Assembly: GCF_947305105.1 (NCBI RefSeq)
Contig: NZ_CAMZCS010000006.1
Span: 1-64,000, forward strand
DNA length: 64,000 bases
Direction: 5' to 3'
From: an uncultured Fibrobacter sp.
Lineage (GTDB): Bacteria > Fibrobacterota > Fibrobacteria > Fibrobacterales > Fibrobacteraceae
The translations under genes and the position numbers were made by a program. The notes beneath the pieces are model-generated. The model was not told the origin of the DNA. It searched no databases and worked only from the letters and a program-made list of their open reading frames with translations. Shown here piece by piece: positions 48,152-63,841 of this stretch. The stretch's first letter is position 1; every line of letters starts with the position of its first letter.

Positions 48152-48577
48152 TTATTTTTTCGTAGATTTAGCGGTCTTCGACTTTTTCGCAGACGTTCCC
48201 ACTTCTGCAGGATTCACAAATTCTTCGATTTTTTCAAGCGTCTCCGCCGAAAGAATGTGCTCCATGCAGCAGGCGTCCTTGTCGGCAATCGCCTCGGACA
48301 CACCGAGCTTGATCAGGAACCCCTTCAACAGAATATGACGGTTCAGAATCTGAGATGCGACGAGCGCACCTTCCGAAGTGAGTTCGACACCACTGTAAGG
48401 CTCCTGCGTCACAAGGCCCAGTTTCTTGAGTTCAATCACCGCCTTGGCAACCGACGGCATCTTGACCTTGAGCGCAGCCGCAATGTCGCGGACACGGGCA
48501 ATCCCGTTCGCAAGGCGCAGCATGTGCACCATTTCCAAGTAGTCTTCGAGGCTCTGGCTTAACTTTACTTGTTCCAT
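48152..48577 (-). CDS. DtxR/MntR-family metal-dependent transcriptional regulator
   Basis: 141 residues from the ATG at 48577 (MEQVKLSQSLEDYLEMVHML), chosen because GGAG lies about 8 nt upstream; the longer frame does not match the family. A winged helix (VRDIAAALKVKMPSVAKAVIELKKLGLV) is followed by the dimerisation/metal domain with HILLKGFLIKLGV and CCMEHILSAET, whose Cys, Glu and His are typical metal ligands. A short Lys-rich tail replaces the SH3 domain of longer DtxR proteins. Heading feoA-feoB, it is most likely the Fe(II)-dependent repressor of this operon. Confidence 0.92.
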   Translation of the reverse strand: MEQVKLSQSLEDYLEMVHMLRLANGIARVRDIAAALKVKMPSVAKAVIELKKLGLVTQEPYSGVELTSEGALVASQILNRHILLKGFLIKLGVSEAIADKDACCMEHILSAETLEKIEEFVNPAEVGTSAKKSKTAKSTKK

Positions 48578-48615
48578 AGGACGGCTCCGATTAGTCGAAA
48601 AACACACCTTGTTTA

Positions 48616-50009: not shown

Positions 50010-52274
50010 TTATAGTGTAAACTTGATTTTGGTAGCAAAGGCACGACCGGGTTTGGATTCGCCATACTTGTCGTAAACGAGTTTATCCATAAAGTTGCGC
50101 ACTTCGAAATTCCACGAGAGCTTATTTGCAAGAATCGAATATTCTACACCTAAATCTTGCGAGAAGGAACTTGGAATAGTTCGGTCCTGTTTTTTGGATA
50201 CTTTCCAGGAGTAGTAATATTCATCGGTGTAGTTTGCAAGCCAATAAAGTTTGAAGAAGTCATCGCGGAAAAGCAAGTCGCCAATATGGAATTCTGCACC
50301 GAAGTTCATATAGAATGTGGGAATATTCGGTACCGTCAGTCCCTCTGCAATCCCATAAGCCAAGTCCGCCTCGCGGCTTTCAGCATCTTGCTTGGTGAGA
50401 TTGTAAGAAAGCGAAATGTATTCGTTCACATCGATTGCGGCATCGATTTCAAAGCCAGTTGTCTTTGTTCCCACACTATTATAATACGGGCGCGGAACGG
50501 CGGCATAATTATTCCAATAAATACGGTCGTCCATAAGCATGTAGAACCAGTTGAATTCCAAATGCAGTTTCAAGAGCAATGGAATCTGTCGCAAGTCAAG
50601 TTCAGTACCCGCTGTAAAGTTATCGGATTTTTCAGGTTTCAGGTTCGGAGCGCACTGTACGTACATTCCGTCGCCAAAGATTTCTTCGCGAGTCGGGAAC
50701 CGCAAGCTGTGCTGATAACCGCCCTTGACAGCAAACTGTTCGACAACCGACAAATCGTCAATCATTTTAATGCGCAAATTTTCACTGTAACCGAAATCCT
50801 TGTTTTCGGCATAGTCATCTGTCAGCTGCTGTATACGTTTTTCGCCGTCGTCGTCAGCCTTGATGGAGTAGTAATATCCCTTGACACCCGCCACATTCTG
50901 GATTCGTTCATTCCAGAAGTTGTTTTCGAGAGAAAGCCCCGTTACAACGGAATGGCTGTGCCCGGGGAATCCAGCGCTATTGAGCGTCTGGCCTTTAGCG
51001 GCGCGCTTGTCTTCCGGATCTTGCGATTCGTAGCGGTAAAGGCCGCTCCAGGTGAGAATGTGATTTTGCGTGAACGTGTAGTCAAAATTCCAGGGAGCTA
51101 CAATCGTCTGGTTTTCGCGTTCGATATGCGACGCCCCACCCATAGAAATTTCGCCAAAAGCGGTATTCGCTTCGCGAACATTCTCTTTGTCCCAGCCGTA
51201 GTAATAAGTATGGCTCGTATCGATGACAGCCTCTTTACCGAAGGCGTAGCTGAACGAAAGCGCGGCCGAAAGCCCCTTGACAAACAAATTCGCCTTTTCG
51301 AGAGAAAGGTTCACGCCGTACGATTGCGCGTTGGCGTTCGCCTCTTCGATGCGGTGGGAATTCGACTGAATTTCTTTATCCATTACGTTGTAAATTACGC
51401 CAAGGGTCATGCGGTCAAAAAAGAACCTTTCGAACGAGACATACGGCAGCACATTGTAACTGTAATAGCGATCATGATCACGCGTTACGGTCGTATCCAT
51501 GTAGGGCGTGGTGAATTCGTAATCATTGTCGGAGTAATTGAAGTAGGCCGAAATACCCGTGGCTACGGAACGGTTCTTGAGCGAATCGACCACCCATACA
51601 TACTTTGCGTCGAGCGAGGCCTTATGCGTGTTGAAACTCCCGAAGCTGTAAGAGCCCGTAATGGAACTCTTGGGCAAGTCATGCGTCACGATATTGATGA
51701 CGCCGCCCATGCCGTCTGTCGCGAAACGCTCAGGCACATAACTCTTGTAAATCTCAATGCGGTCGATTTTATCAATCGGAATATCGTTGACAGAGAAATT
51801 CCCGTTGCCGTTATCGACAGGCACACCATCGACAAGTACCTTCACGTTCTTGCCTTCCATGCCACGGATGTTGATCTTGCTTTCGCTGCCCATGCCGCCC
51901 GACTGGCGGATTTTCACGCCAGAAGAACGATTTGTGGCGTCTGCGATTGTGGCGCTGGATCCCTGCAGTTCCGTAGCGTCCATCACCTTGACCGATTCGG
52001 CCTTCGTTTTCTTGTCAACAGGAGCCGCTTCGTTGATTCCTTCACCTTCAACGCCCATTTCATCAAGAACGGTTACGTCCGCATTCTTCGTCGGTGAATT
52101 TTTCACCGGAGCGCTTTCGTCAGCAGTAGGTTCCTCGGCAAAAACATCATCAAAATTTGTAATCTCTTCGTCGGAATTAACCCCTGCCGATTCCTGCGCT
52201 CGCGTTGCAACCGCCGCGATAGCAATCAAAACAAAGACAATGGTTATCAGTTTGTATATAAAAAAGCGTTTCAT
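50010..52274 (-). CDS. TonB-dependent outer-membrane receptor
   Basis: 754 residues. After a signal peptide (IAAVATRA) and an acidic N-terminal extension, the plug domain spans about 95-215 (SGVKIRQSGGMGSESKINIR, VLVDGVPVDNG, FATDGMGGVINIVTHDLP). A 22-strand barrel follows to the terminal FATKIKFTL. Such receptors import chelated iron, cobalamin or glycans using TonB energy. The ATG at 52274 lies 6 nt after an ATTTG -7-like element, so the mRNA may be leaderless. It shares an operator with the divergent ABC pair and is followed by a surface lipoprotein. Confidence 0.93.
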   Translation of the reverse strand: MKRFFIYKLITIVFVLIAIAAVATRAQESAGVNSDEEITNFDDVFAEEPTADESAPVKNSPTKNADVTVLDEMGVEGEGINEAAPVDKKTKAESVKVMDATELQGSSATIADATNRSSGVKIRQSGGMGSESKINIRGMEGKNVKVLVDGVPVDNGNGNFSVNDIPIDKIDRIEIYKSYVPERFATDGMGGVINIVTHDLPKSSITGSYSFGSFNTHKASLDAKYVWVVDSLKNRSVATGISAYFNYSDNDYEFTTPYMDTTVTRDHDRYYSYNVLPYVSFERFFFDRMTLGVIYNVMDKEIQSNSHRIEEANANAQSYGVNLSLEKANLFVKGLSAALSFSYAFGKEAVIDTSHTYYYGWDKENVREANTAFGEISMGGASHIERENQTIVAPWNFDYTFTQNHILTWSGLYRYESQDPEDKRAAKGQTLNSAGFPGHSHSVVTGLSLENNFWNERIQNVAGVKGYYYSIKADDDGEKRIQQLTDDYAENKDFGYSENLRIKMIDDLSVVEQFAVKGGYQHSLRFPTREEIFGDGMYVQCAPNLKPEKSDNFTAGTELDLRQIPLLLKLHLEFNWFYMLMDDRIYWNNYAAVPRPYYNSVGTKTTGFEIDAAIDVNEYISLSYNLTKQDAESREADLAYGIAEGLTVPNIPTFYMNFGAEFHIGDLLFRDDFFKLYWLANYTDEYYYSWKVSKKQDRTIPSSFSQDLGVEYSILANKLSWNFEVRNFMDKLVYDKYGESKPGRAFATKIKFTL

Positions 52275-52280
52275 CGGCCC

Positions 52281-52374
52281 CAAATTGAGAAAATGGGGAA
52301 AAAAACATCTACTCCAAAAGGTTTAATGGAAATCCGTTTGGAGTAGAAAAAAAAGTTGATTTTTCCAAAATTTG
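52281..52374. promoter_or_regulatory. Shared divergent operator of the receptor and ABC operons
   Basis: A perfect 11-bp inverted repeat, TCTACTCCAAA (52308-52318) and TTTGGAGTAGA (52337-52347), sits between the two genes. In each direction GGAGTAGA is followed by exactly 22 nt and then ATTTG (52285-52281 leftward, 52370-52374 rightward). Confidence 0.75.
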
Positions 52375-52400: not shown

Positions 52401-54215
52401 ATGAAAAAGAAATCTCTGCTCTCTTGGATTTTCCTGTTTGCCAAAAACAAGAAAAAATATTACTTCGCAAGCATTTTCTTTGCGCTTTTGCGCGTTGCTT
52501 GCGGAATTGCCCCTTACATCATTATCGCAAACATCGTGCGCGAACTGCTTTCGGGCGTGCGCGACTGGGATGTTTACCTTAAAGAATGCCTGATTATTGC
52601 GGCATTCTGGTTCGGGAATGTCCTGTTCCACAGCATTTCGACGACGCTTTCGCACGTAGCGACGTTCAACGTTCTCGGTAACATCCGCAAGGACCTTTGC
52701 GACAAGCTATCGCGTGTGCCGCTGGGTTCTGTTCTCGACATGCCCTCGGGCGCGCTCAAGAACATCCTGGTAGAACGCATCGACAGCATGGAAACGACGC
52801 TTGCGCACGTGGTTCCGGAATTTACCTCGAACCTGATTCTCCCTGTGCTCATGTTCGTCTACCTTTTCCATATCGATTGGCGCATGGGGCTTACCTCACT
52901 TGGAACGCTCCCGATCGGTATGGTCGCCATGGCCGTCATGTTTGCCGGAGCGCAAAAGTGGTTCGACAATTCTATCCAGAAAACGAAGGCGTTGAACGAC
53001 ACCGCGGTTGAATACATTAACGGCATCGAAGTCATCAAGGCGTTTGGCAAGTCAAAGTCTTCTTATGACAAGTTTGTAGTAGCCGCAAAAGAAGGGAGCG
53101 ACTGTTTTGTCGAATGGATGCGCAATTGCATTTGGCCGCACGCCCTTGCCATTACGGTCGCTCCTGCCACGCTATTGACGGTGTTGCCGTTTGGCGGTTA
53201 CTTCTATTACAACGGTTCCATTACGGCAGTGGATTTTATCACCGTCATCATCATCTCGGTAAGTATCATGATGCCGCTCCTCACCATCATGAGTTACAGC
53301 GACGACATCAGCAAGGCGGGCGTCATTTTCGGCGAAGTCGGCTCTGTGCTCGAAATGAAGGAACTTGCACGCCCCGCGACGGACAAGCGTAAACCCGCCG
53401 ACAATTCCATCACGTTGAAAGACGTGCGCTTTAGCTACCATGCTTCGACTTCGCTCAGCACAGGCAAGGACAAGGTCCCTGAGCTTGCCGAAGGGCCTAG
53501 CAATGAAAAAAGCAAGGAGATTCTCCACGGCATCAACATGGTTCTCCCCGAAGGGAGCTTTACCGCATTCGTGGGCCCGAGTGGCTCGGGCAAATCGACA
53601 ATCGCCCGCCTTATTGCCTCACTTTGGGACGTTGACAGCGGCGATATCGAAATCGGCGGCATAAACATCAGAGACCTTTCACTCGAAGAATACAACCGCC
53701 GTGTCGCCTACGTTTCGCAGGATAACTTCCTGTTCGACATGTCTGTCCGCGAAAACATTCGGCTCGGGCGGCCTTCGGCATCGGATGCCGAAGTCGAAGA
53801 GGTGGCGCGCCAAAGCGGCTGCTACGAATTTATCATGAGTCTCGAAAACGGGTTCGACACGGTTGTCGGCGGCTCGGGCGCCCACCTCTCCGGTGGCGAG
53901 CGCCAGCGCATCGCCATCGCCCGCGCCATGATGAAAAACGCCCCCATCGTCATTCTCGACGAAGCGACCGCCTATACCGACCCCGAAAACGAAGCCATTA
54001 TCCAGAAATCCGTAGCAAAACTCGTGCAAGGCAAGACGCTCATCGTGATTGCCCACCGTCTTTCTACCGTCAAGGACGCCGACAAGCTCTACGTCATCAA
54101 GGACGGCAACATCGACAGCTGCGGCACACACCAGGAACTGCTCGAAAAGGGCGGTCTATACAAGTCCATGTGGCAAGCCCACATCAGTGCCAAGGATTCC
54201 GAGGAGGATGCATAA
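52401..54215 (+). CDS. ABC half-transporter (exporter fold), subunit 1
   Basis: 604 residues from the ATG at 52401, with GGAGG upstream. Six membrane helices (about 15-310) are followed by a nucleotide-binding domain: A-loop FSYHAS (about 345), Walker A GPSGSGKST (about 391), signature LSGGERQR (about 496), Walker B IVILDEAT and H-loop AHR. A REP-like palindrome adds about 20 residues (TSLSTGKDKVPELAEGP) between the A-loop and the next strand. With the next gene it would form a heterodimer like mycobacterial IrtAB or Yersinia YbtPQ, exporter-fold ABC proteins that import siderophores; ordinary export is the alternative. Confidence 0.9.
   Translation: MKKKSLLSWIFLFAKNKKKYYFASIFFALLRVACGIAPYIIIANIVRELLSGVRDWDVYLKECLIIAAFWFGNVLFHSISTTLSHVATFNVLGNIRKDLCDKLSRVPLGSVLDMPSGALKNILVERIDSMETTLAHVVPEFTSNLILPVLMFVYLFHIDWRMGLTSLGTLPIGMVAMAVMFAGAQKWFDNSIQKTKALNDTAVEYINGIEVIKAFGKSKSSYDKFVVAAKEGSDCFVEWMRNCIWPHALAITVAPATLLTVLPFGGYFYYNGSITAVDFITVIIISVSIMMPLLTIMSYSDDISKAGVIFGEVGSVLEMKELARPATDKRKPADNSITLKDVRFSYHASTSLSTGKDKVPELAEGPSNEKSKEILHGINMVLPEGSFTAFVGPSGSGKSTIARLIASLWDVDSGDIEIGGINIRDLSLEEYNRRVAYVSQDNFLFDMSVRENIRLGRPSASDAEVEEVARQSGCYEFIMSLENGFDTVVGGSGAHLSGGERQRIAIARAMMKNAPIVILDEATAYTDPENEAIIQKSVAKLVQGKTLIVIAHRLSTVKDADKLYVIKDGNIDSCGTHQELLEKGGLYKSMWQAHISAKDSEEDA
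53442..53496. repeat. REP-like palindrome, type A with extended arm, inside the ABC gene
   Basis: The type A core (53473-53496) is preceded by CTTCGACTTCGCTCAGCACA, a frequent companion of such elements. All of it is translated in frame. Confidence 0.85.
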
Positions 54216-55964
54216 ATGTTCGATACACTCATTAAATTCTTCAATTTCTGCAACGCGGAAAACCGCCACAAATTCTACGGCTCTATCGTTGTGGGGATTT
54301 TCAATTCCTTCTTCATGGCACTCCGCATCGGTGCCATGGCCGTCATGCTGCAGGGCGTCATTCGCCATGTGCAGGGAATCGCGCCGTTTACCATGGACAC
54401 CGTCTGGCTTTCGCTTGGAATCATGGTAGCAAGCCTTATCGGAGCAACCGTCACCAAGCGCATCATGAGCATGTGGCAAACCGAGGGCGGTTACCGCACT
54501 TGCGCCTCCAAGCGCATCGAAATCGCCGAACACCTGCGTTACCTGCCCATGGGCTACTTCAACAAGAACAGCCTCGGCTACATCACCTCCGTCACCACCA
54601 ACACCATGGAACAGCTTGGCGATGTGGCTACCCGCGTTGTCATGATGGTCACGCAGGGCATTCTCGACACCGTCCTCATCATCGTGATGATCGCCTTCTT
54701 CGATTGGCGAATTGCGATTGTCGCAACCATCGGCTTTGCGATTTTCCAGTTCATCAACACGCTCATGCGCATGAACGTCCGCGCCGTTTCTCACGAAAAA
54801 GTGGAATCCGACAGCAAGGTAGTCGAAAAGGTTCTCGAATACATCCAAGGAATTGCAGAAGTCAAGGCCTACAACATGACCGGCAAGCGTTCCAAGGAAC
54901 TGAACGAAATCATTGACAGGAACACCAGCGCCAATATCGGCATGGAACTCAAATGCGTCCCGCTTTCGAACTTGCAGACTTTTGTCGCCAAGCTCACGGG
55001 CGTTGCCATCATGATGTTCTCGATTCATTTCTACCTGAACGGCACCATGGAACTTGCCAACTGCGCCGTCATGCTAGTGTGCTCCTTTATGCTCTTTGCG
55101 GCCCTGGAACTGGGCGGTAGCTACGCGGCACTCCTCCGTGCCGTCGACATTTCGGTCAACCGCGCAAACGATATCTTGAACAAGCCCACCATGGACATCG
55201 ATGGCGAAGAAATTGCCCCCGCCAATCACGACATCAAGGCAAGCGGAGTCGATTTCGCCTATGAAAAGCGCAGAATTATCGACAACGTGACACTCCACAT
55301 TCCCGAAAAAACAACTACAGCCATTGTGGGCCCGAGCGGTTCGGGAAAAACGACGCTCTGCCATTTGCTCTCTCGTTTCTGGGATGTCAACTTCGGTGTC
55401 GTGACTTTGGGAGGCCGCTGCGTGCAAGATTACAGCATGGACAGCCTCATGAAGAATTTCAGTTTCGTATTCCAGAACGTGTATCTGTTCCGCGATACGA
55501 TAGAAAACAACATCAAGTTCGGGAATCCGAGCGCCACGCACGAGCAAGTCGTAGAAGCCGCCAAGAAGGCCTGCTGCCACGACTTTATTGAAAAGCTCCC
55601 CGACGGTTATAATACGGTCATCGGCGAAGGCGGCGCAAGCCTCAGCGGCGGTGAACGCCAGCGCATCTCGATTGCACGCGCCATCATGAAGGATTCCCCG
55701 GTCATCATTCTGGACGAAGCGACCGCGAACGTGGACCCCGAAAACGAGCGCGACTTGATGCTTGCTATTCAGGAACTCACCAAGGAAAAGACGGTCATCA
55801 TGATTGCACACCGCCTCAAGACCGTGCGCCACGCCGACCAGATTGTCGTCTTGGACAAGGGCCGCATCGTGGAGCAAGGCAAGCACGAAGAACTCGTGAA
55901 GAACGGCGGAATCTACGCCCGATTCATTGATTCCCGCCGCGAAGCCGTCAGCTGGAAGCTGTAA
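54216..55964 (+). CDS. ABC half-transporter (exporter fold), subunit 2
   Basis: 582 residues. Six membrane helices, then Walker A GPSGSGKTT (about 371), signature LSGGERQR (about 472), Walker B VIILDEAT and IAHRLKT. It starts directly after the TAA of subunit 1 and its own stop overlaps the MATE start (TAATG). Intact catalytic motifs in both subunits suggest two working ATP sites. No REP insertion is seen here, in contrast to subunit 1. Confidence 0.92.
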   Translation: MFDTLIKFFNFCNAENRHKFYGSIVVGIFNSFFMALRIGAMAVMLQGVIRHVQGIAPFTMDTVWLSLGIMVASLIGATVTKRIMSMWQTEGGYRTCASKRIEIAEHLRYLPMGYFNKNSLGYITSVTTNTMEQLGDVATRVVMMVTQGILDTVLIIVMIAFFDWRIAIVATIGFAIFQFINTLMRMNVRAVSHEKVESDSKVVEKVLEYIQGIAEVKAYNMTGKRSKELNEIIDRNTSANIGMELKCVPLSNLQTFVAKLTGVAIMMFSIHFYLNGTMELANCAVMLVCSFMLFAALELGGSYAALLRAVDISVNRANDILNKPTMDIDGEEIAPANHDIKASGVDFAYEKRRIIDNVTLHIPEKTTTAIVGPSGSGKTTLCHLLSRFWDVNFGVVTLGGRCVQDYSMDSLMKNFSFVFQNVYLFRDTIENNIKFGNPSATHEQVVEAAKKACCHDFIEKLPDGYNTVIGEGGASLSGGERQRISIARAIMKDSPVIILDEATANVDPENERDLMLAIQELTKEKTVIMIAHRLKTVRHADQIVVLDKGRIVEQGKHEELVKNGGIYARFIDSRREAVSWKL

Positions 55965-57295
55965 TGCAGATTCAACTTTCGGACCACTTCACTTACGGGA
56001 GGCTTCTTCGCTTCGTCTTTCCGTCTATCTTGACAATGTTTTTCACCACCATCTACAGCATTGTCGATGCCGCATTTGTCTCGAACTTTGTCGGAAAGAC
56101 TTCTTTTGCTGCCGTAAACCTCGTCATGCCGGTCCTTATGCTTATTGCCGCTCCCGGCGTGATGATGGGGGCAGGCGGCAGCGCACTGGTCGCAAAATTC
56201 CTCGGCGAGGGCGATAACGAAAAAGCGAACAAGGCGTTTTCAACAATCGTGTATGCGACAATCGCTTACGGAATTACCGCAAGTATCACGGCATCCTATT
56301 TTATGGAAGGATTAGCCGCATTTCTGGGTGCCGACGGCGAGTTCCTTTCGCAGGCGACCCGTTACGGGCGCATTGCTGCCCTTGGCGGAATCGCCTTCGT
56401 GTTGCAGCATCTCTTTTACTGTTTCATGATTGTAGCAGAAAAGCCTAAGCTGGGTTTTGCGCTTACTGTTTTAGCGGGCATCACAAACATTGTTCTGGAT
56501 CTGTTGTTCATTGTCGTTTTGGAATGGGGCATTTCCGGAGCGGCCTTGGCGACCGTTATCGGTCAGTCCGTCGGAGGATTCACCCCATTCGTATTTTTCC
56601 TATTGCGAAACAAGACTCCTCTCCGAATCGTAAAACCCGTTTTCGATGGCCGCACGTTGTCAAAAGCCATGTCGAACGGAGTTTCCGAGCTAGTCACAAA
56701 CATCGCCATGTCCATCGTAAGCATGCTCTACAATTTCCAGCTCATCAGAATTGCCGGAGATACGGGCGTTGCCGCATACGGGGCTATCATGTATGTAAGC
56801 TACATTTTTTCGACATTCTTTACGGGCTATTCGTTTGGACGTGCTCCCATCATAAGCTACCATTACGGAGCCCGCAACACAAGCGAACTCAAAAATCTAT
56901 TCCGTATGGATTGCGTGATTGTTGCGGTTGCGGGTATCGTGCTCACGGCCTCGTCAGAAGCGTTGGCATTACCTTTGGCAAAAATTTTTGGCGGCTACGA
57001 TCCAAATTTATTCGAAATGATTCGCCACGGCATCGTCATCTATTCATTCGCCTACTTGCTGATGGGCGCGAACTACGCAGGTTCCTCTTTCTTTACGGCC
57101 CTGAACAACGGCCTGGTTTCGGCTCTCATATCGTTCTTGCGGACATTCGTTTTCGAAATCATCGCCGTGCTTGCGCTCCCCATTTTCTTCGGGCTTGACG
57201 GCATCTGGAGTGCGTGCGCTGTCGCCGAAATCGCCTCGTTTGCGGTTACTGCAATCTGCGTCGTGGCCTTCCGTAAAAAATATGGCTACTGTTGA
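55964..57295 (+). CDS. MATE-family efflux transporter
   Basis: 443 residues with 12 predicted helices and the pseudo-repeat layout of MATE proteins (LVMPVLMLIAAPGVMMGAGG, GVMMGAGGSALVAKFLGEGD, FFTGYSFGRAPIISYHYGA). MATE proteins expel cationic or aromatic compounds using Na+ or H+. It is translationally coupled to the ABC pair, so it may remove a toxic product or a stripped ligand delivered by that system. Confidence 0.92.
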   Translation: MQIQLSDHFTYGRLLRFVFPSILTMFFTTIYSIVDAAFVSNFVGKTSFAAVNLVMPVLMLIAAPGVMMGAGGSALVAKFLGEGDNEKANKAFSTIVYATIAYGITASITASYFMEGLAAFLGADGEFLSQATRYGRIAALGGIAFVLQHLFYCFMIVAEKPKLGFALTVLAGITNIVLDLLFIVVLEWGISGAALATVIGQSVGGFTPFVFFLLRNKTPLRIVKPVFDGRTLSKAMSNGVSELVTNIAMSIVSMLYNFQLIRIAGDTGVAAYGAIMYVSYIFSTFFTGYSFGRAPIISYHYGARNTSELKNLFRMDCVIVAVAGIVLTASSEALALPLAKIFGGYDPNLFEMIRHGIVIYSFAYLLMGANYAGSSFFTALNNGLVSALISFLRTFVFEIIAVLALPIFFGLDGIWSACAVAEIASFAVTAICVVAFRKKYGYC

Positions 57296-57328: not shown

Positions 57329-58213
57329 ATGGACAAGAATGTCATTGCGATTGGTTACGCGATAGCGGCGGCCGCATTTTATGCACTGAATGTTCCCTGC
57401 TCCAAAATGCTGCTGGCCCACATTTCGCCCGTATTCATGGCTGGGCTACTCTATATTGGAGCGGGGCTCGGCATTGGCTTCCTCTACCTGTTCCATGTTA
57501 GGCGCGAGTCCCAATCGGAACGGCTCTGCAAAAAAGATTTTCCCTACACGCTTGGCATGGTCCTGCTCGACATTGTCGCCCCCATACTGCTCATGTTCGG
57601 CGTCAAGTACGGAACATCCAGTAATGCATCGCTGCTCGGGAACTTCGAAATCGTCGCGACAACGTTGATTGCGCTATTCATCTTTAGAGAAAAGGTGTCT
57701 ACGCGTTTGTGGATTGCGATTTTATTCATAACGACATCCAGTTTCATCCTCTCGTTCGAAAATGCCGACGGATTCAACTTTTCGATCGGCTCCATCTTCG
57801 TTCTCGGAGCGACCATCTGCTGGGGGCTAGAAAACAACTGCACCCGCAAAATTTCGGACAAAAGCACATACCAGATTGTGACCATAAAAGGCCTCTGTTC
57901 CGGAATCGGTTCCATCGTCGTTTCGATTACCACAGGCGAAATGCATTTTGCCGTAAAATACATCCCGCTCGCCCTGCTGCTCGGCTTTGTGGCTTACGGC
58001 CTAAGCATTTTCACCTACATCCGCGCGCAAAAATACCTGGGAGCCGCAAAGACCAGCGCCTTTTACGCATTCGCGCCCTTTATCGGCGTCCTGTTTTCTG
58101 TCGTGCTCCTGAACGAAAAAATCACGCTACAGAACACCATAGCATTCCTAGTCATGATTATCGGAACGATATTCGTCGTTTACGATACACTTGACCGTTC
58201 GCACTTTATGTAA
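57329..58213 (+). CDS. EamA (DMT) family transporter
   Basis: 294 residues with ten helices in two EamA repeats (ALNVPCSKMLLAHISPVFMA, ATTLIALFIFREKVSTRLW; AKTSAFYAFAPFIGVLFSVV). DMT transporters export small metabolites; the substrate is unknown. TACATTTA ends 4 nt before the ATG, so it may have its own near-leaderless promoter 34 nt past the MATE stop and not depend on the upstream operon. Confidence 0.9.
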   Translation: MDKNVIAIGYAIAAAAFYALNVPCSKMLLAHISPVFMAGLLYIGAGLGIGFLYLFHVRRESQSERLCKKDFPYTLGMVLLDIVAPILLMFGVKYGTSSNASLLGNFEIVATTLIALFIFREKVSTRLWIAILFITTSSFILSFENADGFNFSIGSIFVLGATICWGLENNCTRKISDKSTYQIVTIKGLCSGIGSIVVSITTGEMHFAVKYIPLALLLGFVAYGLSIFTYIRAQKYLGAAKTSAFYAFAPFIGVLFSVVLLNEKITLQNTIAFLVMIIGTIFVVYDTLDRSHFM

Positions 58214-59603: not shown

Positions 59604-60803
59604 CTACTGAGGCGCAATATAGTAATACGCAACTACAACATTTTTGCGTGCTACGGCATTATCAAGGAATTCGAACATTGTGCGGTAAGCGTAATCGCGA
59701 ACATCCTTACGAGAAAGGAATAAATCGTGCATTCCGTCTTCAACAGTCACCGTTCTGACATCGGGTCCTAACTTGGGAGCCCATTTTTCAAGAAGATTCA
59801 CATCCAACATGCAGTCACAACGCATGTAGTCATCATCCCACTTGACTTTATCAATAGTGCAGCCGCTACGCATCATAAGGACGGGTGCCTTTATCTGCAT
59901 TCCCGCATGGATCCACTTGATTCCCCTTTCTGTTGCACGGAGGTAACCGAAGTACTGCTGCGGCCATTCGTCGCTCTTTAATTCCGTATTGAATTCCCAT
60001 TCACCTTTTTCTGTTTTCAAAAGAGACATATTGTACTTGGGAGATTCCTGTTTCGGTGCAGGCATATCGGGCATCAGGAGCGCAATATCCGAAAAAACTG
60101 GATAAGCTATATTGCGGACGAACCAGCTGTTTTTATAATCAAGGAAGGGACTATTCAAAACGAGCGCCGCAAAATCCTCGCTATTGCGCTCGTTCAGGTA
60201 ATTCGGCATAATTAAGCCACCCTGGGAATGTCCGATAATAACAAATGGCAGCGTATTCGTCGATCCTGAATTATCTGCAGCAATTTTTTTGCTAAGCGCC
60301 ACGGCAGCATCTAATTCGGCATAATATTCCTTGACGCTTCGCATATCGGAACGCGGGTCACCTTCGCGATACGAGCGACCATTATAATGTAAGTCAATCG
60401 CAAAGAACGCAAATCCCGCCGAATCCGATTTTTCAGCAAGCTCTTCTTGGAAGAAATAATCGTTATATCCATGCACGTACAGGATAATTCCACGTGGGCT
60501 GACAGCCTGATTTATTGAACGCGGAGAACTCCCGAAGGGGTATTCAATCAACGTCGAACGGAATACCTTGTCGTAAGGATTTACCTCTATCGGATAAATC
60601 TGATAAGGTGCGCCAAGTTCTGGGTCCACCGCCATCTGTGGCAAAGTTTTGTCAATGATTACTTGCAGCGTGGCCGCCGAAAGCGGTTTGCTGTACGCCT
60701 CATCGCGTTTCTTTTCTTTGCATGCAGCAAGGCAAGCAGTGGCTGAAGTGGCAGAAATTAATACGGCCAAAGCCGTGGCAGCGATTATTTTTAATTTGTT
60801 CAT
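59604..60803 (-). CDS. Alpha/beta hydrolase, probably exported lipoprotein
   Basis: 399 residues. The N-terminus (ALAVLISATSATACLAAC) is a signal peptide with a likely lipobox LAAC. An alpha/beta hydrolase (lysophospholipase-like) fold follows: oxyanion motif LYVHGYNDY, nucleophile elbow GHSQGG (Ser about 192), and a late His in VEDGMHDLF. It could be an esterase acting in the periplasm, for example on ester-linked chelators, but the substrate is not known. Upstream lies a copy of the shared box, and the ECF ATPase gene ends 60 nt away. Confidence 0.85.
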   Translation of the reverse strand: MNKLKIIAATALAVLISATSATACLAACKEKKRDEAYSKPLSAATLQVIIDKTLPQMAVDPELGAPYQIYPIEVNPYDKVFRSTLIEYPFGSSPRSINQAVSPRGIILYVHGYNDYFFQEELAEKSDSAGFAFFAIDLHYNGRSYREGDPRSDMRSVKEYYAELDAAVALSKKIAADNSGSTNTLPFVIIGHSQGGLIMPNYLNERNSEDFAALVLNSPFLDYKNSWFVRNIAYPVFSDIALLMPDMPAPKQESPKYNMSLLKTEKGEWEFNTELKSDEWPQQYFGYLRATERGIKWIHAGMQIKAPVLMMRSGCTIDKVKWDDDYMRCDCMLDVNLLEKWAPKLGPDVRTVTVEDGMHDLFLSRKDVRDYAYRTMFEFLDNAVARKNVVVAYYYIAPQ

Positions 60804-60810
60804 GCCAGAA

Positions 60811-60853
60811 CAATAATAAAGCAGGCAAATTCGTTCTACTCCAAATAGGCCAA
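60811..60853 (-). promoter_or_regulatory. Copy of the shared box before the hydrolase gene
   Basis: TTTGGAGTAGA on the minus strand (60845-60835). Upstream of it GAAATCCG is conserved at the same distance as in the 52.3-kb operator. Downstream, TATTATTG (60818-60811) is a -7-like element, but 3 nt closer than at the other three promoters. Confidence 0.5.
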
Positions 60854-60863
60854 ACGAAATCCG

Positions 60864-62336
60864 TTACGCATTCACCATCGTATCAATTAATTTTTCCCGA
60901 TTGCCTTGCAACGTATACTGTTCAGCGATTTTTCCGTGTTCCAAGCGAATGATATTGCTACAGCAATTCAAGATGAATTCGGGATCATGTGTAATCACAA
61001 GAAGCGTTTTTCCGCTGGCAGCAAGTTTCTGGAGAGGTGCCGACACGGCTAGCATTTGCCTGTAGTCAAGACCGCTAGTGGGTTCATCGAACACGACAAT
61101 ATCGCGACCGCTAGAAACGCCACTGCCAATAGCGACACGCTGTTTTTGCCCACCCGAAAGAGCCATCGGATGTTCGTACGCATACTGTTCCAGGTTCAAT
61201 CCAGCTAGAATTTCGAGAGCCGCTTTTTCATTTGGCGGGTCCATGCCCAGCAGGACTTCTTCGAGAACACTTTCGGTAAAAAGCTGGTGATTCACATCCT
61301 GCATAATCAAGTATGCGCCGTACTTGCGGACCTTGCGTTTTTGCCGCCATGCTCCACACAAACCGCACAGCACCTGCGCAAGTGTCGACTTCCCTGCCCC
61401 GTTATGGCCGATAAGGGCTGTAATTTGCCCCCGAGGGAGCGTAAGCGTCGGGATATCCAAAATGGGGAACTTGCGATTGTAGGCAAAATGCAAATCATAG
61501 AAGACGAGCAATTCTGAGGGAGATTGCTTCGCTGGATCCTTCGAACCTTCCGGCCCTTCGGCAAGCTCAGGGGCCTTATTCTTAAGTTGTTTCAAGTTCA
61601 TGCAGCGCAATCCGAGGCTTGCCGCATATTCCGGGCCTTTCGCTTCGAGTTCCGCAGGAGTCCATTCGTGCGCAATACAGCCATCTTTTACATAGCAAAT
61701 CCGATCTGCGATTTCGCGCAGGTAATGGATGCGGTGCTCTACGACAACTACGGTCTTTCCAGCTTTTTTCCAGCGGGCCACAATTTCAGCCAAATCCGCA
61801 ACGCTTTTGAGGTCAAGATTTGCCGAGGGTTCGTCAAGTACGAAAATTTCGGGATCGGTCGCAGAGACCGAGGCGCAGGCGATTTTTTGCTTTTCTCCGC
61901 CAGAAAGGTGGAAGATATTTCGGCCCGCCAAATGTTCTATGTGGAATTCCTTCACGACGCGATTCACGCGTTCCCGGATATCTTCCGGATCCATTCCCAA
62001 GTTTTCGCAGCCAAAGGCGATTTCACTGTCGGTATCGATGTTGAAAAACTGCGAACGCGGATTTTGGAAAACGGAACCCACATATCGTGAAATTTCGGCG
62101 AGTGTCATATCGGCGGTATTCTTGTCGCCGAGCAATACGTCGCCCGCCATCGTTCCCGATTGATAAAGCGGAATAAGCCCGTTAATCAGCTTAGAAATTG
62201 TCGTCTTTCCGCAACCCGACTCCCCCGCCAATATCACACACTCCCCCGAACGGATTTCAAGGTTCAAATCCTTGATGACTGCATCGTACAAGGAATCAGT
62301 GTAGGAGAAGGAAACGTTTTTTAAGGAGATGTTCAT
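60864..62336 (-). CDS. ECF transporter energizing ATPases A1 and A2, fused
   Basis: 490 residues with two ABC ATPase domains. Domain 1: Walker A GESGCGKTT (about 35), Q-loop, signature HLSGGEKQK, Walker B FVLDEPSANLD. Domain 2: GHNGAGKST (about 305), signature ALSGGQKQR, VVFDEPTSGLD. Energy-coupling factor systems use such ATPases with a T component and an S component to import vitamins or metals. The inter-domain linker (about 250-275, APELAEGPEGSK and AKQSPSE) is built from REP-like sequence. The ATG at 62336 is 1 nt past the T-component stop. Confidence 0.92.
   Translation of the reverse strand: MNISLKNVSFSYTDSLYDAVIKDLNLEIRSGECVILAGESGCGKTTISKLINGLIPLYQSGTMAGDVLLGDKNTADMTLAEISRYVGSVFQNPRSQFFNIDTDSEIAFGCENLGMDPEDIRERVNRVVKEFHIEHLAGRNIFHLSGGEKQKIACASVSATDPEIFVLDEPSANLDLKSVADLAEIVARWKKAGKTVVVVEHRIHYLREIADRICYVKDGCIAHEWTPAELEAKGPEYAASLGLRCMNLKQLKNKAPELAEGPEGSKDPAKQSPSELLVFYDLHFAYNRKFPILDIPTLTLPRGQITALIGHNGAGKSTLAQVLCGLCGAWRQKRKVRKYGAYLIMQDVNHQLFTESVLEEVLLGMDPPNEKAALEILAGLNLEQYAYEHPMALSGGQKQRVAIGSGVSSGRDIVVFDEPTSGLDYRQMLAVSAPLQKLAASGKTLLVITHDPEFILNCCSNIIRLEHGKIAEQYTLQGNREKLIDTMVNA
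61521..61575. repeat. REP-like elements A and partial B in the EcfA linker
   Basis: A type A palindrome (61552-61575, GGCCCTTCGG to CAGGGGCC) is next to a type B fragment (AGATTGCTTCGCTG, 61521-61534). Together they encode the linker between the two ATPase domains. Confidence 0.82.
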
Positions 62337-62337
62337 T

Positions 62338-63066
62338 TTATGAGAAAAGAGCACTTATAATGTCTATAATGGATTGTTTCGCTCTGCTCGCAATGACAAA
62401 GCAGGTCGCAACAAAAATGCAATACACGAAGACAATCAAATCCTGCACATGGAAACCAATCGTCGCGACACAGGTGCGCTTTGTTTCGGGCGAAAGGCCG
62501 CGGGTCACCGCCGCAATCGAAAGTTCATCGGCGATTTTTGTAAGCGAGACAAGCAACGGAACCAAACGATATTCCAGAATCGAGAACGGGTTCGTTAGCG
62601 TACGCAAACTGAACAGCCGGATTCCACGCATCTGCATGGCATGCCCGATATCGCGAGCCTCGTCAAACAATGTCGGGAAAAAGCGAATCATCACCGTAAG
62701 GGGTATCGTCAATTTATTCGGCACATGCATCCGGGCCATTGCCACCAAGAACTCGTTTACCTTGGTCGTCTGCATGACATAGTAAAGCACAATGCCGATG
62801 GGCATCATGCGCGAAACAATCATCATCGTCGAAACACCCAAAGTGCCCACCCTCCCGACATCCATCGTCTTCAGGTGTTCAAATCCAAGTGCCGCCGTCA
62901 AATATACCGAAAAGAAAATAAGAACGAATCTCCACTTTCTTTCGAACAAAAGTAAAACCGCCGGAACGGCAAACATCAACGAACTATAAGCAATTGGAGC
63001 CGAAAGGATTACGCTATTCGCCACCACGGCTAAAAATAATTTTGTCCGCGGATCTAACGTAAACAT
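62338..63066 (-). CDS. ECF transporter transmembrane component T
   Basis: 242 residues from the ATG at 63066 (MFTLDPRTKLFLAV), the usual EcfT start, with AGGG upstream; a longer frame would translate a REP element. Five or six helices, and the ECF T signature helix region with ARMHVPNKLTIPLTVMIRFFP and IGHAMQMRGIR (Ala-Arg-Gly type coupling motif). The C-terminal 20 residues (VIASRAKQSIIDII) are encoded by a REP-like palindrome, so the native C-terminus appears altered. Confidence 0.9.
   Translation of the reverse strand: MFTLDPRTKLFLAVVANSVILSAPIAYSSLMFAVPAVLLLFERKWRFVLIFFSVYLTAALGFEHLKTMDVGRVGTLGVSTMMIVSRMMPIGIVLYYVMQTTKVNEFLVAMARMHVPNKLTIPLTVMIRFFPTLFDEARDIGHAMQMRGIRLFSLRTLTNPFSILEYRLVPLLVSLTKIADELSIAAVTRGLSPETKRTCVATIGFHVQDLIVFVYCIFVATCFVIASRAKQSIIDIISALFS
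62371..62398. repeat. REP-like palindrome, type B, at the 3' end of ecfT
   Basis: GGATTGTTTCGC to TCGCAATGACA. Translated as VIASRAKQS near the EcfT C-terminus. Confidence 0.85.
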
Positions 63067-63078
63067 AAATTCAGCCCT

Positions 63079-63112
63079 AGATTGCTTCGTCACTTCGTTC
63101 CTCGCAATGACA
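63079..63112. repeat. REP-like palindrome, type B, between ecfS and ecfT
   Basis: A 34-nt variant with a longer middle (CGTCACTTCGTTCC), occupying most of the 49-nt gap between the S- and T-component genes. Confidence 0.88.
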
Positions 63113-63115
63113 ATT

Positions 63116-63727
63116 CTATGCAAGTCCGATGCGTTCAAAATGCTTTTTCATTACGCGGCGAGCCACAAGCCCACCCACGATTGCACCCAAAATGCCAAAG
63201 GCATAAATCGCAACCAGAGGCCATGGGCTTTGAGAAAGTTCCGCCAATTTTGCCACATAACCCGCATCGCACATAGTGCGCGTATATTCCAGGTATTCTT
63301 CGGTTGATGTCCAAAGAGGAAGCATCATCGAAGAAGACATGAAGCTCATCACGATATTTGCAGAGAACAGTCCCGCAAAAGATTTACCTATAAACTTGAT
63401 GCATGAACCTGCAAGCAAACCGACAAGCAAGCTAATGGCAAGCATCAAAATGCCCTGTCCCATAACAAACATGGCCGTGCCGAAAAATCCGCAGAATATA
63501 AGACCGCAAAGAATAGAGCGTTCCACCTTCGAAAAGAACAGGAACAACGGAATACTTGTTACAAGAGCTATGCTACCTGTCGAAAAGACAATCAGCGCTG
63601 GAATGTAACCAATGCTCGAAGACAAGAACGAAAGTACAATGTATAGAGCAGCAAAAATGCCCACGTTCACCAGGTCGCGGACCAACGTATTCGAAGATTT
63701 CTTTCCCGTCGTTCTGATATTACTCAT
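63116..63727 (-). CDS. ECF transporter substrate-binding component (MptD/Trep_Strep family)
   Basis: 203 residues from the ATG at 63727, with GGAG 8 nt upstream. Five or six helices (VGIFAALYIVLSFLSSSIG, ALVTSIPLFLFFSKV, GILMLAISLLVGLLAGSC, GILGAIVGGLVARRVMKKHF) and overall pattern fit the Trep_Strep (TIGR02185) S-component family, whose ligands are not settled. It is the first gene of an S-T-A1A2 operon. The promoter carries the shared GGAGTAGA box. Confidence 0.85.
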   Translation of the reverse strand: MSNIRTTGKKSSNTLVRDLVNVGIFAALYIVLSFLSSSIGYIPALIVFSTGSIALVTSIPLFLFFSKVERSILCGLIFCGFFGTAMFVMGQGILMLAISLLVGLLAGSCIKFIGKSFAGLFSANIVMSFMSSSMMLPLWTSTEEYLEYTRTMCDAGYVAKLAELSQSPWPLVAIYAFGILGAIVGGLVARRVMKKHFERIGLA

Positions 63728-63766: not shown

Positions 63767-63803
63767 CAAATAGAGTTTTTAAAGCAAATTTTTTCTACTC
63801 CAA
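63767..63803 (-). promoter_or_regulatory. Shared box and -7-like element of the ECF operon
   Basis: TTGGAGTAGA (63803-63794 on the minus strand), then exactly 22 nt, then ATTTG (63771-63767; octamer TCTATTTG). Same geometry as both promoters at 52.3 kb. Confidence 0.7.
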
Positions 63804-63811
63804 TTAGACAG

Positions 63812-63841
63812 AAAAAAGGACCGCAGCTTTCGCCACAGTCC
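63812..63841 (-). terminator. Terminator of the right-edge outer-membrane protein gene
   Basis: On the minus strand GGAC...GC, loop GAAA, GC...GTCC, then six Ts. Confidence 0.85.

Follow-up and report, generated by a model that had tools for sequence, protein, structure and literature searches.

The window, by which we mean the whole 64,000-nucleotide stretch that was analysed, is the beginning of contig C6 of an uncultured rumen Fibrobacter sp. At about 52.3 kb it holds two divergent genes: a TonB-dependent receptor (receptor 1; 50010-52274, minus strand), whose nearest NCBIfam model is MxcH, below cut-off, and an ABC transporter half with membrane and ATPase parts (52401-54215, plus strand). 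The latter is the first gene of a rightward operon that continues on the same strand with a second ABC gene (54216-55964), a MatE gene (55964-57295) and an EamA gene (57329-58213). Between the divergent genes lies an inverted repeat (52308-52347), whose perfect 11-bp arms, TCTACTCCAAA at 52308-52318 and TTTGGAGTAGA at 52337-52347, are separated by an 18-nt spacer; an ATTTG is found 22 nt from either arm (52370-52374 on the plus strand, 52285-52281 on the minus strand). The initial annotation had reported these arms, the gap and both distances, and all of them are read correctly from the sequence. The ATTTG that it used as a landmark is, however, the tail of a predicted -10 (TCAATTTG, AAAATTTG). 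These hexamers, AAAATT for the rightward promoter (52367-52372, plus) and TCAATT for the leftward one (52283-52288, minus), are each placed 19 bp past the operator described below, and the proposed pair of divergent promoters with identical geometry is in agreement with this prediction.

On chance alone one such repeat is only mildly unusual: the window contains seven perfect 11-bp short-loop inverted repeats against 0.3 in shuffles, and three of the seven lie within one tandem repeat. The weight comes from recurrence of the motif. A short tandem/inverted repeat, GTAGGAAGTAG, was also noticed near the window start (304-360).

Genome-wide counts were obtained by pattern and model searches. TTCTACTCCAAW occurs in seven copies in the 3.57-Mb genome, every one on contig C6, and its reversed control does not occur; among 80 congeneric genomes, the 17-base pattern GGNTT-N9-CY-N-TTTGGAGTAGA has 80-odd exact matches distributed over 32 of them, with no control matches. 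When the copies are read toward the neighbouring gene start, they compose an asymmetric operator of about 34 bp: CC-N4-GG(A/T)TTT, 20 bp from core to core, CC-N-TTTGGAGTAGA, 19 bp, and a -10 hexamer (e.g. TCAATT, TAAAAT, TATTTT, AAAATT). The half-sites are direct repeats of CC-N4-GG cores 20 bp apart, that is, two helical turns, and the proximal one, CCNTTTGGAGTAGA, lies over the -35 position. A consensus -35 was not seen, the best TTGACA match at a fitting spacing reaching 3-4 of 6 bases; because the proximal half-site occupies the -35 position, the layout is that of a class II promoter of an AraC-type activator.

In 80 distinct exact-core sites, collected from the own genome and its relatives, T....T is present at offset 19 in 85%, and the runner-up among offsets 5-39 reaches 40%; the -10 played no part in collecting most of these sites. 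The distal half was partly used for site collection, both in a pattern with GAAATCCG (at most two mismatches) and in the model R1, which spans the distal half and the -10, so the conservation of both these parts is somewhat inflated. Own-genome copies found by the proximal core alone all have a -10 at 19 bp, except for one chance match at 127 kb; the distal half is present as well at 74.05 and 75.59 kb and weak at 63.8 and 81.6 kb.

Searching with R1, which uses sequence alone, gives eight operators for the own genome. All lie at 52-88 kb of contig C6, and each faces a gene start. The genes that they head are transport-related and encode TonB receptors 1 and 2, ABC pair 1 (with MatE and EamA behind it), a hydrolase, an ECF transporter, a putative lipoprotein and two MMPL exporters. 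One of them is a single operator on the minus strand at 60835-60868, with a -10 TATTGT at 60815-60810, upstream of an alpha/beta hydrolase gene (59604-60803, minus). It contains an arm (60835-60845), N10 and GAAATCCG (60856-60863), after which the stop of the EcfA ORF follows at 60864. The recurrence proposed for 60.85 kb is real in that the arm and a partial copy are there, but the second arm has not decayed into the stop region; the site is a regular operator of the single type, directed at the leftward hydrolase gene. A weaker operator, ATTGGAGTAGA (63794-63827, minus; -10 TCTATT at 63774-63769), precedes the S-T-A genes of the ECF transporter (60864-63727, minus), which encode an S component of the MptD/Trep_Strep family, a T component and a double ATPase.

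For both TonB receptors the myxochelin receptor MxcH is the closest NCBIfam model, well under that model's cut-off, and it is the linked MxcH-like receptors and ABC inner-membrane transporter pairs that bear the operator; FeoAB and DtxR genes lie near the cluster. The regulon would most naturally be read as one of iron/siderophore-type uptake and export. Siderophore synthesis genes were not recognised near the own-genome cluster. In one relative (L132, G085:C16 52407-56999, minus), a 1530-aa ORF, NRPS/adenylation-like by eye, adjoins a box-controlled receptor and lipoprotein and is a possible siderophore synthesis gene. An identity as XusB/DUF4374 was considered for the lipoproteins beside the TonB receptors and set aside as a guess without Pfam support. 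Three feoB genes were counted within about 42 kb of contig C6 (45574-48607, 65229-68812 and 85557-87605), two of them with a DtxR gene of their own.

At 52308-52347 two such operators are superimposed head to head. By motif alignment, the rightward one (52314-52347, plus) has its distal half at 52314-52327 (CCAAAAGGTTTAAT) and its proximal half at 52334-52347 (CCGTTTGGAGTAGA), and the leftward one (52308-52341, minus) has its distal half at 52341-52328 (CCAAACGGATTTCC) and its proximal half at 52321-52308 (CCTTTTGGAGTAGA). The CC-N4-GG core is itself a dyad, and hence both cores are common to the two operators, the proximal half of one being the distal half of the other; the symmetry of the repeat results from this head-to-head overlap. 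Of the 80 distinct exact-core sites, 59 lack a second arm; these are asymmetric, face a gene and have a -10 at 19 bp. Their distal half is CCATTCGG, whereas that of double sites is CCAAANGG since the same bases form the other arm; at position -19, 19 of 21 double sites have A and 50 of 59 single sites have T. What the initial annotation took for a symmetric site of a dimeric regulator is therefore a putative regulator site, and the class of the candidate regulator does dimerise, but the unit is not a symmetric palindrome. A fully superimposed operator pair is an uncommon form of the known AraC-type class II kind.

Relatives that keep the receptor/ABC gene order (G000, G008, G020, G046, G065, G067, G071 and G083) also keep the double site with its arms and 18-bp gap, which favours a function and answers the check on conservation that had been suggested. 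Opposed R1 matches are found at the same place in G081, G086 and G089 as well, and the 18-bp gap is constant across all double sites. An equivalent 40-bp double site lies between feoB and tonB-exbB-exbD in G049. The perfect arms and the invariant gap would also suit a true palindromic operator, on which one dimer would hold both 11-bp arms symmetrically. AraC-family proteins are able to use inverted sites, e.g. ToxT at acfA/acfD (PMC3089052), and in G006, G013 and G085, which share one double site, both arms persist despite the loss of the divergent receptor gene, and the receptor-side -10 is shifted by 2 bp. Nevertheless, we consider a palindrome unlikely, because most sites of the family are single-armed and still have both a distal half and a -10. 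Moreover, a single arm drifts alone in G083, where it has two changes and the other arm is uncompensated, and in G001, where an unrelated gene takes the place of the ABC genes, the right arm is lost and the remaining receptor-facing operator has a distal half of the typical single type.

The initial annotation placed the regulator outside the window, and the best candidate is indeed there: an AraC-family protein of 278 aa encoded at C6:75821-76657, 11.8 kb past the window end and amid the operator cluster, with the lipoprotein operator on one side and ABC pair 2 on the other. Its C-terminal part is a two-HTH DNA-binding domain (HTH_18 66.5 bits and HTH_AraC 32.8 bits, both over cut-off; matches to the DNA-binding domains of MarA, SoxS and AraC). 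The N-terminal domain is beta-rich, and Foldseek with the predicted structure (mean pLDDT 83.5) retrieves the AraC dimerisation domain (1xja/2arc) and full-length ToxT and Rns, with modest TM-scores. When it was compared with the siderophore-responsive AraC group (YbtA/PchR/AlcR), every NCBIfam match of the protein was far under cut-off and mostly to the DNA-binding domain, RhrA and Btr appearing only weakly, and its N-terminal domain does not assign it to the YbtA/PchR group. The gene has a TTGACA and a TAGATT-like -10 upstream, and no R1 match facing it was found in that upstream region. The genome encodes two HTH_18 proteins, this candidate among them. The second one (C15:23369) was rejected as the regulator, having no group match in the box-bearing G020, G071 and G049 and matches in the box-less G018 and G053. 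Relatives of the AraC candidate were also seen on contigs of rumen MAGs labelled Methanobrevibacter/Methanobacteriaceae (L174, L175), which are possibly mis-binned bacterial contigs.

Across the 80 congeneric genomes, with AraC homologs called at E<1e-25 and box matches at E<=0.01, the box is present in 38 of 38 genomes with an AraC homolog and in 7 of 42 without, some of the seven weakly (Fisher p 5e-16, kinship ignored). The MMPL gene ortholog is absent from the AraC-less genomes. AraC and its putative targets are gained and lost jointly, and in many species they have been lost together; for this reason co-occurrence alone cannot tell a regulator from a target block. More specific is the association of a variant box, TTTAGAGTAGA, with a diverged AraC subtype of about 30% identity: it occurs in 13 of the 17 genomes with this subtype and in none of the other 63, a comparison that ignores shared ancestry. 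The 13 genomes are G004, G045, G070, G073, G074, G076, G019, G078, G085, G086, G088, G001 and G090, and in 11 of them the variant box is on the contig of the diverged AraC gene, no more than about 38 kb from it. Both AraC types and both box types coexist in G086, whose variant box is about 7 kb from the diverged AraC gene. Of all the observations, this covariation argues most strongly for recognition of the box by the AraC-family protein.

Boxes without a close AraC protein, in G071 and G072, speak against this regulator. In G071, reported as 100% complete, three strong boxes are present and HTH_18 proteins are lacking, and the block that would hold AraC is missing from an otherwise collinear region; G072 likewise has boxes and no close AraC. 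The box promoters of both hardly differ from the ones in relatives that have AraC, the leftward box promoter of G071 being one base apart from that of G065, and a recent loss of AraC in these two genomes is therefore plausible.

Other kinds of element could in principle occupy such a position. The iron-transport context, with two DtxR paralogs beside feoAB (48152-48607 in the window and 68390-68812 on the contig), might suggest the site of a metal-dependent repressor of the DtxR/IdeR type, but DtxR homologs are present in 40 of 40 good genomes and the box in just 28 of these, and the fixed 19-bp spacing to the -10, the missing -35 and the 20-bp direct repeat are activator-like; we regard a repressor site as extremely unlikely. 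ECF/FecI-like sigma factors often control TonB receptors, and TTTGGAGTAGA could be the -35 element of such an alternative sigma factor, with the -10-like element at a fixed distance from it. Between GGAGTAG and the -10, however, the distance exceeds the usual spacing of ECF promoters, conservation is also strong in the distal half-site, a separate element 20 bp upstream, the core variant tracks the AraC subtype, and inspection of the operator cluster by eye revealed no sigma gene, all of which makes this reading very improbable. As for an RNA hairpin acting as bidirectional terminator or attenuator, the 40 nt are predicted to be stable on both strands (-17.3 kcal/mol, z about -4.6 to -5.0); the repeat is nonetheless upstream of both predicted -10s and would not be transcribed from these promoters, the single-arm copy does not fold, the arm changes in G083 are uncompensated, and an Rfam scan gave no match. 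The probability that we attach to a hairpin is close to nil.

Two superimposed, opposed copies of an asymmetric operator for an AraC-family activator, placed between divergent promoters, are thus very probably what the repeat represents, with the protein at 75821-76657 as the likely activator of a regulon of iron/siderophore-type uptake and export. Motif, orientation, spacing, clustering, phyletic association and covariation with the regulator subtype are read from the sequence, and from these we infer binding of the AraC-family protein to the operator, activation and an inducer of the iron-chelate type. An activator on either operator would switch on the divergent uptake genes in opposite directions; in each operator it would meet two direct-repeat half-sites, the proximal one over the -35 and the -10 following after 19 bp, in the class II manner, and the same two cores would serve both operators. 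As the same two cores are required in either orientation, the operators might be used one at a time: a bound activator dimer would serve either the receptor or the transporter promoter and so fix the ratio of outer- to inner-membrane uptake parts. We advance this switch tentatively, as a possibility that we think rather less probable than its opposite, together with the idea that the layout arose more than once, between TonB receptor and ABC genes in many species and between feoB and tonB in another.

Known class II activators of the AraC family include AraC at araI1-I2, MelR and RhaS. The present operator resembles theirs in its direct-repeat half-sites about two turns apart, with the proximal one over the -35 and no good -35 hexamer, and the candidate resembles these proteins in being a two-HTH protein whose modelled N-terminal domain is similar to the AraC dimerisation domain. 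It differs from them in that here there are two operators, opposed, with both half-site cores in common. ToxT activates the divergent acfA and acfD genes through inverted 13-bp toxboxes in their shared intergenic region, in a class I position upstream of the -35 (PMC3089052). An AraC-like candidate, two divergent genes and an inverted site pair are common to both cases, and over its full length the predicted structure of the candidate matches ToxT and Rns best; unlike the single inverted toxboxes, each direction here would have a class II direct-repeat operator of its own. YbtA, the AraC-type regulator of the yersiniabactin island, is reported to act on the promoters of psn, ybtA and irp6/ybtPQ, among which is a divergent region under regulation (PMC11225919, PMC3672683). 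As in that system, an AraC-type regulator would lie near a TonB siderophore receptor and an ABC half-transporter pair (PMC11225919, PMC3672683); in contrast to it, no siderophore synthesis genes were recognised nearby, and the likeness is one of arrangement and not of a base-by-base operator comparison. Among the published systems compared, YbtA would be the closest in biology and ToxT at acfA/acfD the closest in arrangement.

A search of one paper library yielded neither a study of this regulon nor a described iron regulator for Fibrobacter. One inverted repeat would in this way lead to a predicted regulon of metal/siderophore-type uptake in this genus and to a candidate regulator that can be named. 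The variant box paired with a diverged AraC subtype would offer a system for studying operator-regulator specificity, and the double operator would be a clean test case of an asymmetric activator serving two divergent promoters through shared half-sites.

A further observation concerns the starts of the predicted transcripts. The predicted -10 ends only 6-10 nt before the ATG at TonB receptor 1 (52274-52288), the hydrolase (60803-60815), TonB receptor 2 (C6 about 74018-74032) and their orthologs, and the gap is exactly 8 nt in nearly all orthologs of TonB receptors 1 and 2. Given so short a gap, leaderless mRNAs are predicted for the receptors, for tonB in relatives and for the hydrolase; leaders are predicted for the ABC, lipoprotein and MMPL genes.
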